Shown: piece by piece, positions 17,760-23,063 of the stretch
Numbering within the stretch: position 1 is the stretch's first letter
Layout: each line of letters starts with the position of its first letter
NCBI RefSeq assembly: GCF_003149185.1
Contig: NZ_QGDO01000001.1
Coordinates: 1,054,001 to 1,118,000 of the forward strand
Source of the DNA: Sediminitomix flava
GTDB lineage: Bacteria; Bacteroidota; Bacteroidia; Cytophagales; Flammeovirgaceae
DNA length: 64,000 nucleotides
Direction of reading: 5' to 3'
The notes under the pieces: generated by a model
What the model was told of the DNA's origin: nothing
Database searches by the model: none
The model's input: the letters and a program-made list of their open reading frames with translations, nothing else
Program-made: the position numbers and the translations under genes

Positions 17760-17787
17760 AGGTAGAGATTCAAAAGTGTCTCTACCT
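17760..17787 (+). terminator. Probable tsaD terminator hairpin
   Basis: A perfect 9-bp inverted repeat AGGTAGAGA/TCTCTACCT has a 10-nt loop. The tail is only partly T-rich. It ends 12 bp before the preferred ATG of the MscS gene. Confidence 0.6.
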
Positions 17788-17799
17788 CATGTATTTATT

Positions 17800-18654
17800 A
17801 TGGAATTCCTACACGACTTGGTGAATCAGCACAATATTGTCCTTGTGTTGATCATCGTTGGAATATCAGTTGCGCTATTTCTTCTCAACAATCGAATAAA
17901 AGCTCAAATTGAAAAGTCTGGAAAAAAGTTAAAGTTAGAGCGTACACACCTCAACTTCTTAAAGAACGCTTCTTCATTTTTCCTCTTATTAACCATTATC
18001 ATTTTAGCACTATCTGTTTTTCCTAGTTCAAAAAAATACGGGAATACATTATTTGCCAGTGCCGGGGTTATTGCTGCTGTATTGAGTTTTTCAGCTCAGC
18101 ATGCTTTCGCAAATATTATCAGTGGAATCTTCATTGTCATCTTTCGACCTTTCAGAGTTGGAGATGTCATAGAGATCGGAGGTTATGATGTAATGGGTGA
18201 AGTTCAAGATATTACTCTCAGACATACAATCATTAAAGATTATTACAACAAGAGGGTTATCATTCCAAATCAAACCATTTCTACTGACCGAATTGTAAAC
18301 TCAGACATCGACGATCATGCTATCTGTAGATATTTGGAGTTTCCTTTCCCACAAGATGTAGACTATGACCATGCCTCAGACATCATTAGAGAAATTGGAG
18401 CGAAACATCCACTCTCTATGGATTATCGAACTGAAGAACATCTCAAAGAAGGTAGGCCATATATCAAAATTCGTATTGTCAGAATTGAAAAACACGCCAT
18501 AGTTCTCAGAGCTTATCTTTGGGCTGAAACATCTGATAAATCTTTTGTACTCAAATGCGATGTATTAGAAGAATGTTTGAGACGTTTCCAGAAAGAAGGT
18601 ATCAGAATTGCATTGTTAGATGATCAACGTGAAGAAAAAAGACTGAATTATTAA
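17800..18654 (+). CDS. Small-conductance mechanosensitive channel, MscS family
   Basis: This 284-aa protein has three transmembrane helices (about residues 12-29, 55-75, 82-110). The pore-lining TM3 and beta-domain junction is clear: FSAQHAFANIISGIF, FRPFRVGDVIEI, then VQDITLRHTIIKD and IIPNQ, all typical of MscS. The C-terminal alpha/beta region is complete. Such channels open on membrane tension and release solutes during osmotic downshock. The start chosen is ATG at 17800. An in-frame GTG at 17776 would add eight residues but lies inside the tsaD terminator hairpin, so it is unlikely. It is the only gene of its unit. Confidence 0.92.
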   Translation: MEFLHDLVNQHNIVLVLIIVGISVALFLLNNRIKAQIEKSGKKLKLERTHLNFLKNASSFFLLLTIIILALSVFPSSKKYGNTLFASAGVIAAVLSFSAQHAFANIISGIFIVIFRPFRVGDVIEIGGYDVMGEVQDITLRHTIIKDYYNKRVIIPNQTISTDRIVNSDIDDHAICRYLEFPFPQDVDYDHASDIIREIGAKHPLSMDYRTEEHLKEGRPYIKIRIVRIEKHAIVLRAYLWAETSDKSFVLKCDVLEECLRRFQKEGIRIALLDDQREEKRLNY

Positions 18655-18660
18655 TCAGTA

Positions 18661-18862
18661 AGTACTAGGACAAAAGAAAACGAGTGTAACTATCCTTAGA
18701 GTTTGCGAAGCTATCTAAGGTTTGATTGATGAGAGTAAGAGTCTTCAGACTCGAAAAAACTACTAAAATGTCGAGTCTGAAGACTCTGGTGTCCATTTAT
18801 GAGTTCTTAGAGCAACTCTAAGAACAGTAAAGTTTTATCCCGAAAACATTTGTCCTAGCACT
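18661..18862. mobile_element. MITE/REP-like palindromic element, about 200 bp, noncoding
   Basis: The interval is bounded by near-perfect terminal inverted repeats, AGTACTAGGACAAA on the left and TTTGTCCTAGCACT on the right (one mismatch in 14). Inside are three nested hairpins: CCTTAGA/TCTAAGG (18694-18720), a perfect 17-bp pair AGAGTCTTCAGACTCGA and its complement (18738-18754 and 18771-18787), and a perfect 10-bp pair GTTCTTAGAG/CTCTAAGAAC (18803-18825). Each 17-bp arm is itself palindromic (GAGTCT-TC-AGACTC). There is no open frame. No target-site duplication is obvious. This looks like a non-autonomous element mobilised in trans, or a BIME-type REP cluster. Confidence 0.65.
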
Positions 18863-18878
18863 TCACAAAGTATACAAG

Positions 18879-18908
18879 AAAAGCTAGCCCATTTTTGAGC
18901 TAGCTTTA
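18879..18908. terminator. Terminator between MscS/MITE interval and T9SS-tail gene
   Basis: A perfect stem AAAGCTAGC/GCTAGCTTT has a 10-nt loop. T-rich sequence on either side allows use by the minus-strand gene pair and possibly by the MscS transcript. Confidence 0.75.
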
Positions 18909-18928: not shown

Positions 18929-19378
18929 TTATTGACCATTAATAATGACCGTTTGAGAAAGAATATCCTCGCCTTTATCAGAAGTAAACTTCAAATGGTA
19001 CACTCCTTTTGGTAAAGGATCAGAACTTTGGTAATTGAAAAGTGCTTCACCGCTAATTCTAAATCTTCTAACAATTACACCTAATTGATTCATTATAACA
19101 GCTTCACCACTTTTCTTGAATGGATTTCCTACAGTAAATGTCCCATTATTTGGATTAGGGAAAACCATCATAGAATTGATCGTTTTTTCACCTAAAAATG
19201 ATTGTCGACTGTTTGAATTACAGTTTGCATCAGCTTCTTCTTGCGTCTCCCAACATTGGTCGCAACTCTGAATTGGACGGCATGGAGGACACTTTAATGT
19301 GATTGTCTGACTTTGAACTGCCGAAATAAAGAACAGACTAAGTAAACAACCGAATATGATATGTTTTATGAATTTCAT
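18929..19378 (-). CDS. Small secreted Cys-rich protein with type IX secretion C-terminal domain
   Basis: This 149-aa protein has a signal peptide (1-23, ending VQSQ), a short Cys-rich segment (CPPCRPIQSCDQCW plus one more Cys), and a C-terminal T9SS type A sorting domain of about 80 residues: VFPNPNNGTFTV, AVIMNQLGVIVRR, LPKGVYHLKF, and a final I-ING. The domain directs export through the type IX system and cell-surface attachment, after which the tail is normally removed. There is almost no cargo besides the Cys motif. It starts 4 nt after the stop of the di-haem protein gene, so the two are translationally adjacent. A partner or surface anchor role for the di-haem protein is inference. Confidence 0.88.
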   Translation of the reverse strand: MKFIKHIIFGCLLSLFFISAVQSQTITLKCPPCRPIQSCDQCWETQEEADANCNSNSRQSFLGEKTINSMMVFPNPNNGTFTVGNPFKKSGEAVIMNQLGVIVRRFRISGEALFNYQSSDPLPKGVYHLKFTSDKGEDILSQTVIINGQ

Positions 19379-19382
19379 AGTC

Positions 19383-22300
19383 TTATAAAGATTCTAAGAA
19401 CTTAATAATTTTTTGTTGGTCACTAGTTGATAAGCTGTTATAAGCAGCACGTGATCCACTGGCGTCACCTCCATGCAATTGAACGGCACCATCTAATGAA
19501 GTGGCTGTACCGTCATGCATAAATAAAGTAGCTTTATCGTTTCGTTCTAGTAATTGAATATTTCTACCAATTCCCCATAGTGCTGGAGTTCTGAATGTAC
19601 CATTATGTACCGTGTGTGTTTTCATGTCGGTATATGGTCTGATCGTAAGATCTCTAAACTCTGCAGGAGCATCACTACTTGTTCTTTGTGTCGGTGAATG
19701 ACAAGAAGCACAACCAACTTGATGGAATAAGACTTCTCCTTGTATCACATCTTCATCATTGTAAGATGCCGCACTACGTGTAGGAACCGTTAAGAACTCT
19801 GTATAAGCGATTAGTAGATTTAAGTCTTCTGGAGAAATATCTGCAGGGTTATCTGGATCAATTTTGTGATCTTCAACCAAAGCATTTTTAGTTTGTTCAG
19901 CTACTGTAGCAGCACCTCCGTCCCAACGTAGTCCAACTTCTGCTCCTGCAATCCACTGCAGTAAACCTGTCCCATATACAGCAGGAGGAACTCTAGGACC
20001 CCGAGGAGTTTGAATAACTTCAGGTCCTCTACCATCTCTGAAGTGACAGCTTCCACAACTGAAATCTCCGATTTGTACTTCATCAAGTACTGGAGGGCCA
20101 AGACGATTATTATCACTTCTATGAATTACACCATGGAAAATATGATGCCCTTCCAAGAAGTCATCCACATCATCTTCTTCTGTAAGCGTGATTAAGTGTT
20201 GTGTGAAAATGGCATCTCGTTCAAGATTGTAGTTTGTCTCGTTGAACCCTGCTGTTTGCAAACTTGGTAAAATCATAAGCGTACTTGCTTTACCTGCCGA
20301 AGCTAAACGAGGATCTCCAAGTGTATTAAAACCTTGTCCGATAAAGTAATTTTGAAGCGTGTTATAGGTTTGTGCTCCACTACCACCTGCTACGGCAGTG
20401 ATTTCGTAGTTCACCATATTTCCGTAGTTATAACCAGGACCAAGGTCTGCGTAAGTAGTACCACTCACTCCCCCAACTGTAGTCGCATATCTTGGGGCCG
20501 GAGAATCTCCAATATCCAAAATATCAATACGAACTGGAGTTACTGGAGCTCCTTCATGAGGATGGAAAGTACCATTCGCAGATGTTAATTGTGGATCTAT
20601 TCTTAAGTTATCTGGCCCATCTGTAATAATCGTTTCATAACGGTCTAAGTATCTCAACTGATCGGCATTGTGTACTGCATCAAATACGGCTTCTGTAATA
20701 CCATCATAAGCATGTGGGTGTCTGAAACGCATCCAGTTTGCTCCTTGAGAAACGATTGTTTCACGAGTTCTAGGATCTATTCTTTCTCCTTGAGTAGTGA
20801 ATAATGAAGAGTACATGTACTGATCTCCCGGATCATCTGTCTGATAATCTTTTTTCTTATATCTGAAGAAATAATAGAAATCACCAGCATCTTGACATTT
20901 TTGAGGAACTGCAGCAGGTCCTGAAGCAAGCGAAACACCTTCAAATTCTACTTGATTACACGAACAGTAGAATTCGAAATCAGGATTTCCGTCTGACTGG
21001 ATATAGATAGTTTGACCATAGTCAACAGAGATTTCAGAAAGATCTTCTGACAAGTCAAAAGTATAACCGTGTACACCCGGAGTTATACCTGTAACAGGAC
21101 TAGGAAGAGCTGGAGAAGGGTAGTTTACAAGAGGAATATCACCACAGGCACTTTCTTCACAAGCTGCACAAGGACCTCCACAATCAACTCTTTCTTCTCC
21201 TTGATTCAAGATTCTATCACTACAAGTTGGTTCTGGTCCTCCTTCATTGATTCGATAATCACCAAGGTTCATCGGACAGTCGCCGTTACTCCATCTGGCA
21301 TATACTTGATAGATTCCAGGAGGAAGATCATAAATAATTAAAGAACCCATGTCGTCAGGAGAAGCATACTGGTAGCTTAATCCTCCATCTAAACTAAATT
21401 GGATATCTGTACGACCTTCTACATCATTGAAATAGAATGTTATTGTACCGTCATTTTTGAATTCAATAGTTTCATTTGTTGTAAAGACTGTTGCTGAAGG
21501 ATTAGGAGTTCCGTTACAAATCGTTTCACAAGATTGACACTCAGATCCACCACAATCAACACCAGTTTCGTCTCCATTTTGCATACCATCATCACAAGTA
21601 GGGCATGGATCACATTCTGGTCCTCCACAGTCAATACCTGTTTCATCACCATTTTGAATTCCGTCATTGCATGTAGGAACGAAGTAACAACTGCTTTCTC
21701 CTGCAACAACTGTGAACTCCACATTTTGAGGAGAAGCTTGAATTGCTAAAGAATAAGTTTGACCGATTGTTACATCAATATCTTTTTGATAATACCCATT
21801 TTCATATCTATCGGGAGGAACACAATTATTGAATCCACCACCAGTACAGAAGTAAAGTGCTGTACCTAAATCGTCTTTGTAGTACATGATCCCTTTTCCG
21901 TCTACAACAGTAAGACCATAGTCGCCACAAGTTCCTGCATCTACAACAGGAGGAGGACAATCTTGACATTGAGAACCACCACAGTCAACACCAGTTTCAT
22001 CACCATTTTGGATTCCGTCATTACAGGTAGGTTCAACTACTTGCTCATTTTTCACAATCCACCATACATTTCCAGCGCCTTCTCCATTTGTATCTCCTTG
22101 TACTTGATCAGAAACGTAGAAATAAAGAGGATCACCATTATAAGTCAATTGAAGTGCCCCGTCGCATCGACCACTTACACCCCAAGTACCCGTAAATTCA
22201 TCTTGTACAGATTGAGGAATCAGCACTTCAGCTAAACTATTCACTAATACAGGAGGCCATGAATTCGCACAGCCATCGTTGCATTCGCTAAATTCTGTTT

Positions 22301-23063
22301 GGTCAGTATCGAAACTATAAATAGTAAGACCATTGCTACTACTTCCGGCTCCTCCCGTAAGAATAAGGCCATGCTCAGTGTGAGTGTAGATACTTACAGT
22401 TGGTTCTATAACAGGAGTAGAATCATCACAGGCTTCGCAGTCGGGTCCACCACAGTCAAGGCCAGTTTCATCGCCGTTCTGAATTCCGTCATTACAGGTA
22501 GCACATGGTTCGCAATCTGCTCCACCACAATCAATTCCGGTTTCGTCACCGTTCTGAATACCATCATTACAAGTAGCACAAGCTTCACAATCTGTTCCTC
22601 CACAGTCAATACCTGTTTCATCACCATTCTGAATCCCATCTGAACAAGTTGGCTCAACAGGTTCGTTACCTGCTTCAGAGGCTACCACATCATACATTGG
22701 TGAAATGTATTGTCCAGTAGAGTTATCTTGAATTTTTAATTGAATAGAATACGTTTGACCTACAGTGATTCCACTAATCTGTCTTTCCCATCTATTTCCA
22801 ACTTTTGTACCCGCAGTACAGTTATCGCCAAGACAGATATAGTTCCAGCCACCAGTCCAACCTTGATCTACAAAATAAATTGTAGCGGTTGTACCGTTGA
22901 CTTCAATACCATAATCGTTTTGTGCATAAGTGTTTGATACGAACAGTTGAATAGTGAGAACTGTTAGGCAGAGTTTAGTTATTAGACTGAACATCTGACT
23001 ACTTACAGTGCATAGTGTTCCACCACTAGAAGGTTTTACCTTAGTGTAAATGGACTTAAACAT
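19383..23063 (-). CDS. Secreted di-haem oxidoreductase (DHOR/DUF1111) with seven Cys-rich 'DGIQNGDETG' repeats
   Basis: This is a 1226-aa exported protein. An N-terminal signal is followed by a beta domain (50-130), three tandem 25-residue Cys repeats of the form CNDGIQNGDETGIDCGG (about 139-213), a 'secreted repeat of unknown function' domain (about 225-340: LTIYSFDTD, WPP, LTYNGDPLYFY), one more Cys repeat (346-370), a second beta domain (377-455), two tandem Cys repeats (464-513), a PKD-like region, and a diverged seventh repeat (613-636). The C-terminal half is a DHOR-type cytochrome with haem sites CGSCH (1003) and CASCH (1118), then FRTPALWGIG, MHDGTA and LHGGDAS. Redox or peroxidase-like activity is inferred from the family. 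The signal peptide fits best with Met24 (22994) as start. There is no T9SS tail on this protein; one is on the adjacent gene. Confidence 0.88.
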   Translation of the reverse strand: MFKSIYTKVKPSSGGTLCTVSSQMFSLITKLCLTVLTIQLFVSNTYAQNDYGIEVNGTTATIYFVDQGWTGGWNYICLGDNCTAGTKVGNRWERQISGITVGQTYSIQLKIQDNSTGQYISPMYDVVASEAGNEPVEPTCSDGIQNGDETGIDCGGTDCEACATCNDGIQNGDETGIDCGGADCEPCATCNDGIQNGDETGLDCGGPDCEACDDSTPVIEPTVSIYTHTEHGLILTGGAGSSSNGLTIYSFDTDQTEFSECNDGCANSWPPVLVNSLAEVLIPQSVQDEFTGTWGVSGRCDGALQLTYNGDPLYFYVSDQVQGDTNGEGAGNVWWIVKNEQVVEPTCNDGIQNGDETGVDCGGSQCQDCPPPVVDAGTCGDYGLTVVDGKGIMYYKDDLGTALYFCTGGGFNNCVPPDRYENGYYQKDIDVTIGQTYSLAIQASPQNVEFTVVAGESSCYFVPTCNDGIQNGDETGIDCGGPECDPCPTCDDGMQNGDETGVDCGGSECQSCETICNGTPNPSATVFTTNETIEFKNDGTITFYFNDVEGRTDIQFSLDGGLSYQYASPDDMGSLIIYDLPPGIYQVYARWSNGDCPMNLGDYRINEGGPEPTCSDRILNQGEERVDCGGPCAACEESACGDIPLVNYPSPALPSPVTGITPGVHGYTFDLSEDLSEISVDYGQTIYIQSDGNPDFEFYCSCNQVEFEGVSLASGPAAVPQKCQDAGDFYYFFRYKKKDYQTDDPGDQYMYSSLFTTQGERIDPRTRETIVSQGANWMRFRHPHAYDGITEAVFDAVHNADQLRYLDRYETIITDGPDNLRIDPQLTSANGTFHPHEGAPVTPVRIDILDIGDSPAPRYATTVGGVSGTTYADLGPGYNYGNMVNYEITAVAGGSGAQTYNTLQNYFIGQGFNTLGDPRLASAGKASTLMILPSLQTAGFNETNYNLERDAIFTQHLITLTEEDDVDDFLEGHHIFHGVIHRSDNNRLGPPVLDEVQIGDFSCGSCHFRDGRGPEVIQTPRGPRVPPAVYGTGLLQWIAGAEVGLRWDGGAATVAEQTKNALVEDHKIDPDNPADISPEDLNLLIAYTEFLTVPTRSAASYNDEDVIQGEVLFHQVGCASCHSPTQRTSSDAPAEFRDLTIRPYTDMKTHTVHNGTFRTPALWGIGRNIQLLERNDKATLFMHDGTATSLDGAVQLHGGDASGSRAAYNSLSTSDQQKIIKFLESL
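22425..22649 (-). repeat. Three tandem 75-bp coding repeats in the di-haem protein gene
   Basis: Three adjacent 75-bp units each encode a 25-residue Cys-rich module (three or four Cys and DETG). The DNA copies are clearly similar but not identical. Further units lie at about 21525-21674 (two in tandem), 21954-22028 and 21156-21227 (diverged). Confidence 0.85.

Follow-up and report, generated by a model that had tools for sequence, protein, structure and literature searches.

The window, the whole stretch of 64,000 nucleotides of Sediminitomix flava that we analyzed, carries a folded repeat between a gene for an MscS-type mechanosensitive channel and a convergent gene encoding a Por_Secre_tail domain. 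The channel gene, whose ORF may begin at 17776, has its stop codon 4 bp ahead of the element, and a terminator-like hairpin stands between the element and the convergent gene; inside the element itself no terminator-like site was found. Beyond the convergent gene, 19383–23063 encodes a large secreted protein in which a di-haem oxidoreductase domain stands alongside an AlcCBM31 domain (family 31 carbohydrate-binding domain) and Lipoprotein_15 repeats. The features of the locus are as follows.

17800–18654, forward strand: MscS-type mechanosensitive channel gene, upstream
18659–18864, forward strand: probable MITE copy, 206 bp including the flanking TA and TC dinucleotides
18659–18660, no strand: left target-site TA
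18661–18674, forward strand: left terminal inverted repeat, AGTACTAGGACAAA-type
18690–18827, forward strand: predicted three-hairpin core, 138 bp
18692–18722, forward strand: left side hairpin, type H1, stem CCTTAGA/TCTAAGG with flanking pairs
18738–18787, forward strand: central hairpin, perfect 17-bp stem with self-palindromic arms
18803–18825, forward strand: right side hairpin, type H2, stem GTTCTTAGAG/CTCTAAGAAC
18849–18862, reverse strand: right terminal inverted repeat
18863–18864, no strand: right target-site dinucleotide, TC in this copy
18880–18907, reverse strand: terminator-like hairpin, adjoining the element and separate from it
18929–19378, reverse strand: convergent downstream gene with Por_Secre_tail domain

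A sequence-only reading had placed an element at 18661–18862. The block is indeed a repeat, and its extent becomes 18659–18864 once the TA duplications are counted. The 14-bp near-perfect terminal inverted repeats described there were recovered as arms at 18660–18674 and 18849–18863 pairing over 15 nt (93%). Likewise, the perfect 17-nt pair with self-palindromic arms lies where it had been placed (18738–18754 with 18771–18787). Three hairpins are present as well, although not nested as had been thought: the layout is end, side hairpin, central hairpin, side hairpin, end, and the apparent pair 18689–18703/18814–18828 is no stem of its own, arising because the two side hairpins are related in sequence. 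The single-stranded DNA fold of 18640–18880 has an energy of −40.3 kcal/mol in comparison with −20.2 ± 3.3 for shuffled sequences (z −6.0, 0 of 200 shuffles as good), and the RNA fold of 18659–18864 gives a z score of −7.3. No ORF of at least 80 aa crosses the element, in agreement with the claim that no gene explains the block, and an Rfam search of the element returned no family match, only generic miRNA hairpins below threshold.

The same reading had suggested a BLAST search of the genome for further copies, a single copy at a fixed position being the outcome that would point to a local regulatory RNA. The element is multicopy: we found it at at least 41 distinct places in its own genome (40 of 87 candidates scored), a draft assembly of 6.6 Mb in 39 contigs that is 99.4% complete. 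Among 22 well-aligned copies identities range from 61 to 93%, the best pair within the exact window family being 93% identical, and copies of this family are old. Most of the copies keep at least one clear outer end. All 30 copies examined for placement are intergenic, and 82% of genomic TA dinucleotides fall in coding sequence. Relative to a gene-orientation background from crude ORF calls over ∼385 kb of the same genome, copies between convergent genes were in excess (15 of 30 vs. 13% expected) and those between divergent genes scarce (2 of 30 vs. 22%). In three copies, judging from the coordinates, the first A of the element restores a TAA stop codon.

Most copies are bounded by TA followed by AGTACTAGGACA on the left and by TGTCCTAGTACT followed by TA on the right, and the consensus at both ends is TA followed by AGTACTAGGACA(A/T)A, with a variant AGTAGGTGG. 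TA was present at 16 of 20 left and 15 of 20 right ends in comparison with a background TA frequency of 7.6%. Adjacent elements in Flammeovirga have exactly one TA in common (e.g., L154 751–790, L155 1236–1275, and L170 1481–1520). The family thus shows what is expected of a MITE: it is short and noncoding, with terminal inverted repeats and many dispersed copies, and target-site duplication is seen as TA on both sides of most copies and as the shared TA of tandem insertions. The own genome contains a second MITE family of ∼390–420 bp with the same ends around an unrelated, strongly palindromic interior, found in at least 15 places (among them L038 7641–8060, L032 9595–10012, and L035 6890–7281 and 16318–16725). 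One pair of its copies, located on different contigs, shares 99% identity across 420 bp, has different flanks, and diverges exactly at TA; this pair is the best evidence for movement of these ends in the own genome. For an intact copy, no base-precise empty site was found in relatives; in Flammeovirga sp. SJP92, the matching spacer is 161 bp shorter, as expected, and is too diverged for alignment. One truncated insertion in Flammeovirga sp. OC4, which begins after CTA, is missing from three relatives.

The 29-bp end recurs at 97–100% identity in Flammeovirga aprica JL-4, SJP92, OC4, and Flammeovirga sp. EKP202, with 322, 137, 51, and 42 matches, respectively, and 0–6 in other Flammeovirga species; the control gave 3 for each of the two highest counts. 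F. aprica also contains an IS with these ends (1,102 bp, L172 1375–2476). Its transposase is spread over two frames that overlap and meet at a TTAAAAAG run, where a programmed −1 frameshift is likely. The joined frame, a reconstruction that assumes this frameshift, matches NF033545 transpos_IS630 with 179 bits (cutoff 100) and DDE_3 with 105 bits, and so places the transposase in the IS630 family, as in IS630-derived, RUP-like MITEs. The left end of the window element, its TA included, agrees with one end of this IS at 25 of 27 positions, as expected for a MITE and its autonomous element; the other end agrees at 20 of 27. Related end pairs were found at 7 of 30 fetched IS630 loci, whereas shuffled ends gave 0.15 on average and 3 at most; the seven include the same F. 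aprica IS and an EKP202 IS, leaving five further Cytophagales genomes. No matching transposase was found in the own genome, a 39-contig draft, the best match (E 0.027) being an IS630 gene with other ends, and we infer that the mobilizer has been lost from this genome or is missing from the draft. Scans for the end in viral contigs gave single matches per contig at most, those for the core in viral contigs gave none, and the plasmids and phages scanned held no match.

Three candidates for a mobilizer or a larger mobile unit were discarded. The own-genome IS630 at L051 has different ends. A 2.5-kb hydrolase cassette between two matching ends in OC4 was rejected, as its genes occupy the same place in 9 of the 9 Flammeovirga genomes searched, including those lacking the ends, and the left of the two ends belongs to a solo insertion that is truncated. 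A 2.3-kb end pair in the own genome (L031) encloses remnants of both MITE families together with genes, none of which encodes a transposase.

Taken together, 18659–18864 is very probably a MITE mobilized in trans by an IS630-family (Tc1/mariner-like) transposase, and the earlier proposal of a nonautonomous element served by a transposase encoded elsewhere is borne out by the terminal repeats, the copies, and the F. aprica IS630 with matching ends. The transposase would bind the ∼27-bp ends, excise the element, and join it into a TA dinucleotide, which would thereby be duplicated; copies would then persist where they are harmless, mainly in intergenic sequence and just past stop codons. As no matching transposase was found in the own genome, its copies now seem to be mostly stranded leftovers. 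The F. aprica IS is the one complete candidate mobilizer that was found, and in it a frameshift is required for a full-length transposase. No function of the element in its host was shown.

The interior is best described as a foldback core of three hairpins apparently built from interchangeable halves. The side hairpins fall into three sequence types, H1, H2, and H3, combined in 30 copies as H1+H2 (21), H3+H2 (4), and H1+H3 (3), with 2 ambiguous, and an extra GGCGGACGCAGTTC segment is found in one arm only (left or right), in both arms, or not at all. Of the stem pairs, 90% are intact, and both-side changes were observed at 12 pairs in comparison with 7.1 in shuffled and 3–7 in slid controls, although not all of these are independent, because whole halves have been exchanged. 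The coordinated changes that keep the pairing may reflect structural selection or template switches repairing the palindrome.

The core also occurs apart from the ends. In a genome of another Cytophagales family (G032), a homologous core of 131–151 bp is present in at least seven copies without AGTACTAGGACA ends, bounded instead by CTATCC...GGATAG. An alignment of own-genome and G032 cores showed both-side changes at nine predicted pairs (RNAalifold), a count that is conservative in the center, where some alignment columns are misplaced. The distribution of the core rests on searches and samples: ∼600 kb of G032 sampled irrespective of known copies held one further core copy only, and a search with the core model across loci sampled from other Cytophagales and from Flammeovirga yielded a single match with three hairpins, a weak one in F. 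aprica (E 0.001). This sequence (L157 8918–9075) has a core-like layout, a different sequence, and a long perfect central stem. Degraded cores without outer ends were found in the own genome at L365 10392–10551, L032 9376–9479, and L049 13004–13109. Flammeovirga provides a parallel with a different core: the 105-bp interior of a 163-bp MITE with AGTACTAGGACA ends recurs in SJP92, OC4, and EKP202 between AGCAGTTGTACA ends, both end types being TA-flanked, and defines a third Flammeovirga MITE type with TA followed by AGCAGTTGTACA (L400–L414). In both cases one core is paired with different ends, which suggests an exchange of cores and ends.

One may then ask whether the core is the primary unit, an independent mobile or functional palindromic repeat of 138–170 bp that was wrapped by IS630-type ends several times, making the window copy a composite. 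The end-less G032 cores, the few degraded ones in the own genome, and the Flammeovirga core carried by both end types are what this would produce. However, the outer ends retained by most own-genome copies mean that mobility of these ends explains the local spread, the end-less cores found there may be copies that have decayed, and no transposase was found for the core. We regard a primary core as a real possibility, if one falling somewhat short of probable; it is compatible with the window copy being an IS630 MITE and alters only the identity of the interior. Cytophagales might even hold separate pools of palindromic cores and IS630-type ends from which MITEs arise by re-pairing, with the three-hairpin core, present in at least two families, spreading or functioning independently and the window copy being a core with captured ends, a scheme that we put forward tentatively and with some doubt.

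Two other explanations concern the nature of the whole element. The sequence-only reading had considered a REP/BIME moved by an IS200/REP-associated tyrosine transposase, and palindromic, intergenic, modular, and mutually inverted hairpins, as well as one Y1_Tnp gene in the own genome, would agree with that. Yet this RAYT-like gene, the only one of its kind (L280 1249–1833), is flanked on both sides by a repeat of its own, ACTTCATCTAAAC...GTGCATCCTGATAAATATCAGGAC, not by the palindromes of our element, and the enzyme with matching ends is an IS630-family DDE transposase. REP elements are 20–40 bp long (PMC3733652), and REPs with RAYTs mostly bear a tag of the GTAG or TGTGG type (table in PMC2817692), which is absent from the hairpin feet here, while long terminal repeats and TA duplications are foreign to REPs; this origin is thus highly improbable. 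It is unlikely, if less remote, that the element is a domesticated regulatory RNA or a termination or mRNA-stability element of gene 3′ ends. The stem covariation, the strong bias to convergent gene ends, and the position of the window copy between stop codon and terminator would fit such a role, but swapping of half modules largely accounts for the covariation, the element contains no terminator-like site and has no Rfam match, and the same convergent bias in RUP and IS has been interpreted as parasite tolerance (PMC3049150).

The nearest known analogue of the IS630-mobilized MITE appears to be the pneumococcal RUP with IS630-Spn1. RUP, too, is a short, noncoding, folded repeat with terminal repeats matching an IS630-family element and a TA target, present in ∼100 intergenic copies that are overrepresented between convergent genes (PMC2229807, PMC3049150). 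It differs in being 107 bp long and in sharing its genome with the IS, whereas here the matching IS was found in other genera only and three hairpins form a modular core inside the element; the likeness drawn here is one of features. ISY100 and IS630/Tc1-mariner elements have the same TA target and duplication, ends of ∼24–27 bp, and a DDE transposase with an N-terminal helix-turn-helix, whereas the window element encodes no protein. Because ISY100 can transpose with as little as 30 bp from each end (PMC2170065), the 27-bp match could plausibly represent a full transposase binding site. The Correia/NEMIS elements of Neisseria are likewise TA-flanked, folded MITEs, 100–160 bp long, in which an internal segment may be present or absent (PMC2229807), but are likened by description and have different ends. 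The Tn3-derived TIMEs are also nonautonomous, moved in trans, and form mosaics with other DNA (PMC4133298), but depend on another transposase family and target duplication, and their mosaics carry genes, whereas here ends and cores seem to be swapped.

In this company the element is an ordinary kind of MITE, and the unexpected part is the folded core present in another family without the ends. A literature search for Flammeovirga with MITE found no paper, and we describe here a MITE family and its candidate mobilizer in Flammeovirgaceae. The ends form a graded series, from hundreds in some Flammeovirga through almost none in sister species to apparently old leftovers in the genus of the window. 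The interiors of MITEs are often unlike the parent IS and their origin is an open question, on which the sharing of cores between ends, if true, would therefore bear. Finally, at L153 1544–3400 in F. aprica we noted a membrane protein gene between two MITEs; it has a zinc-ribbon at its end, which we take to resemble those of IS1595 transposases.
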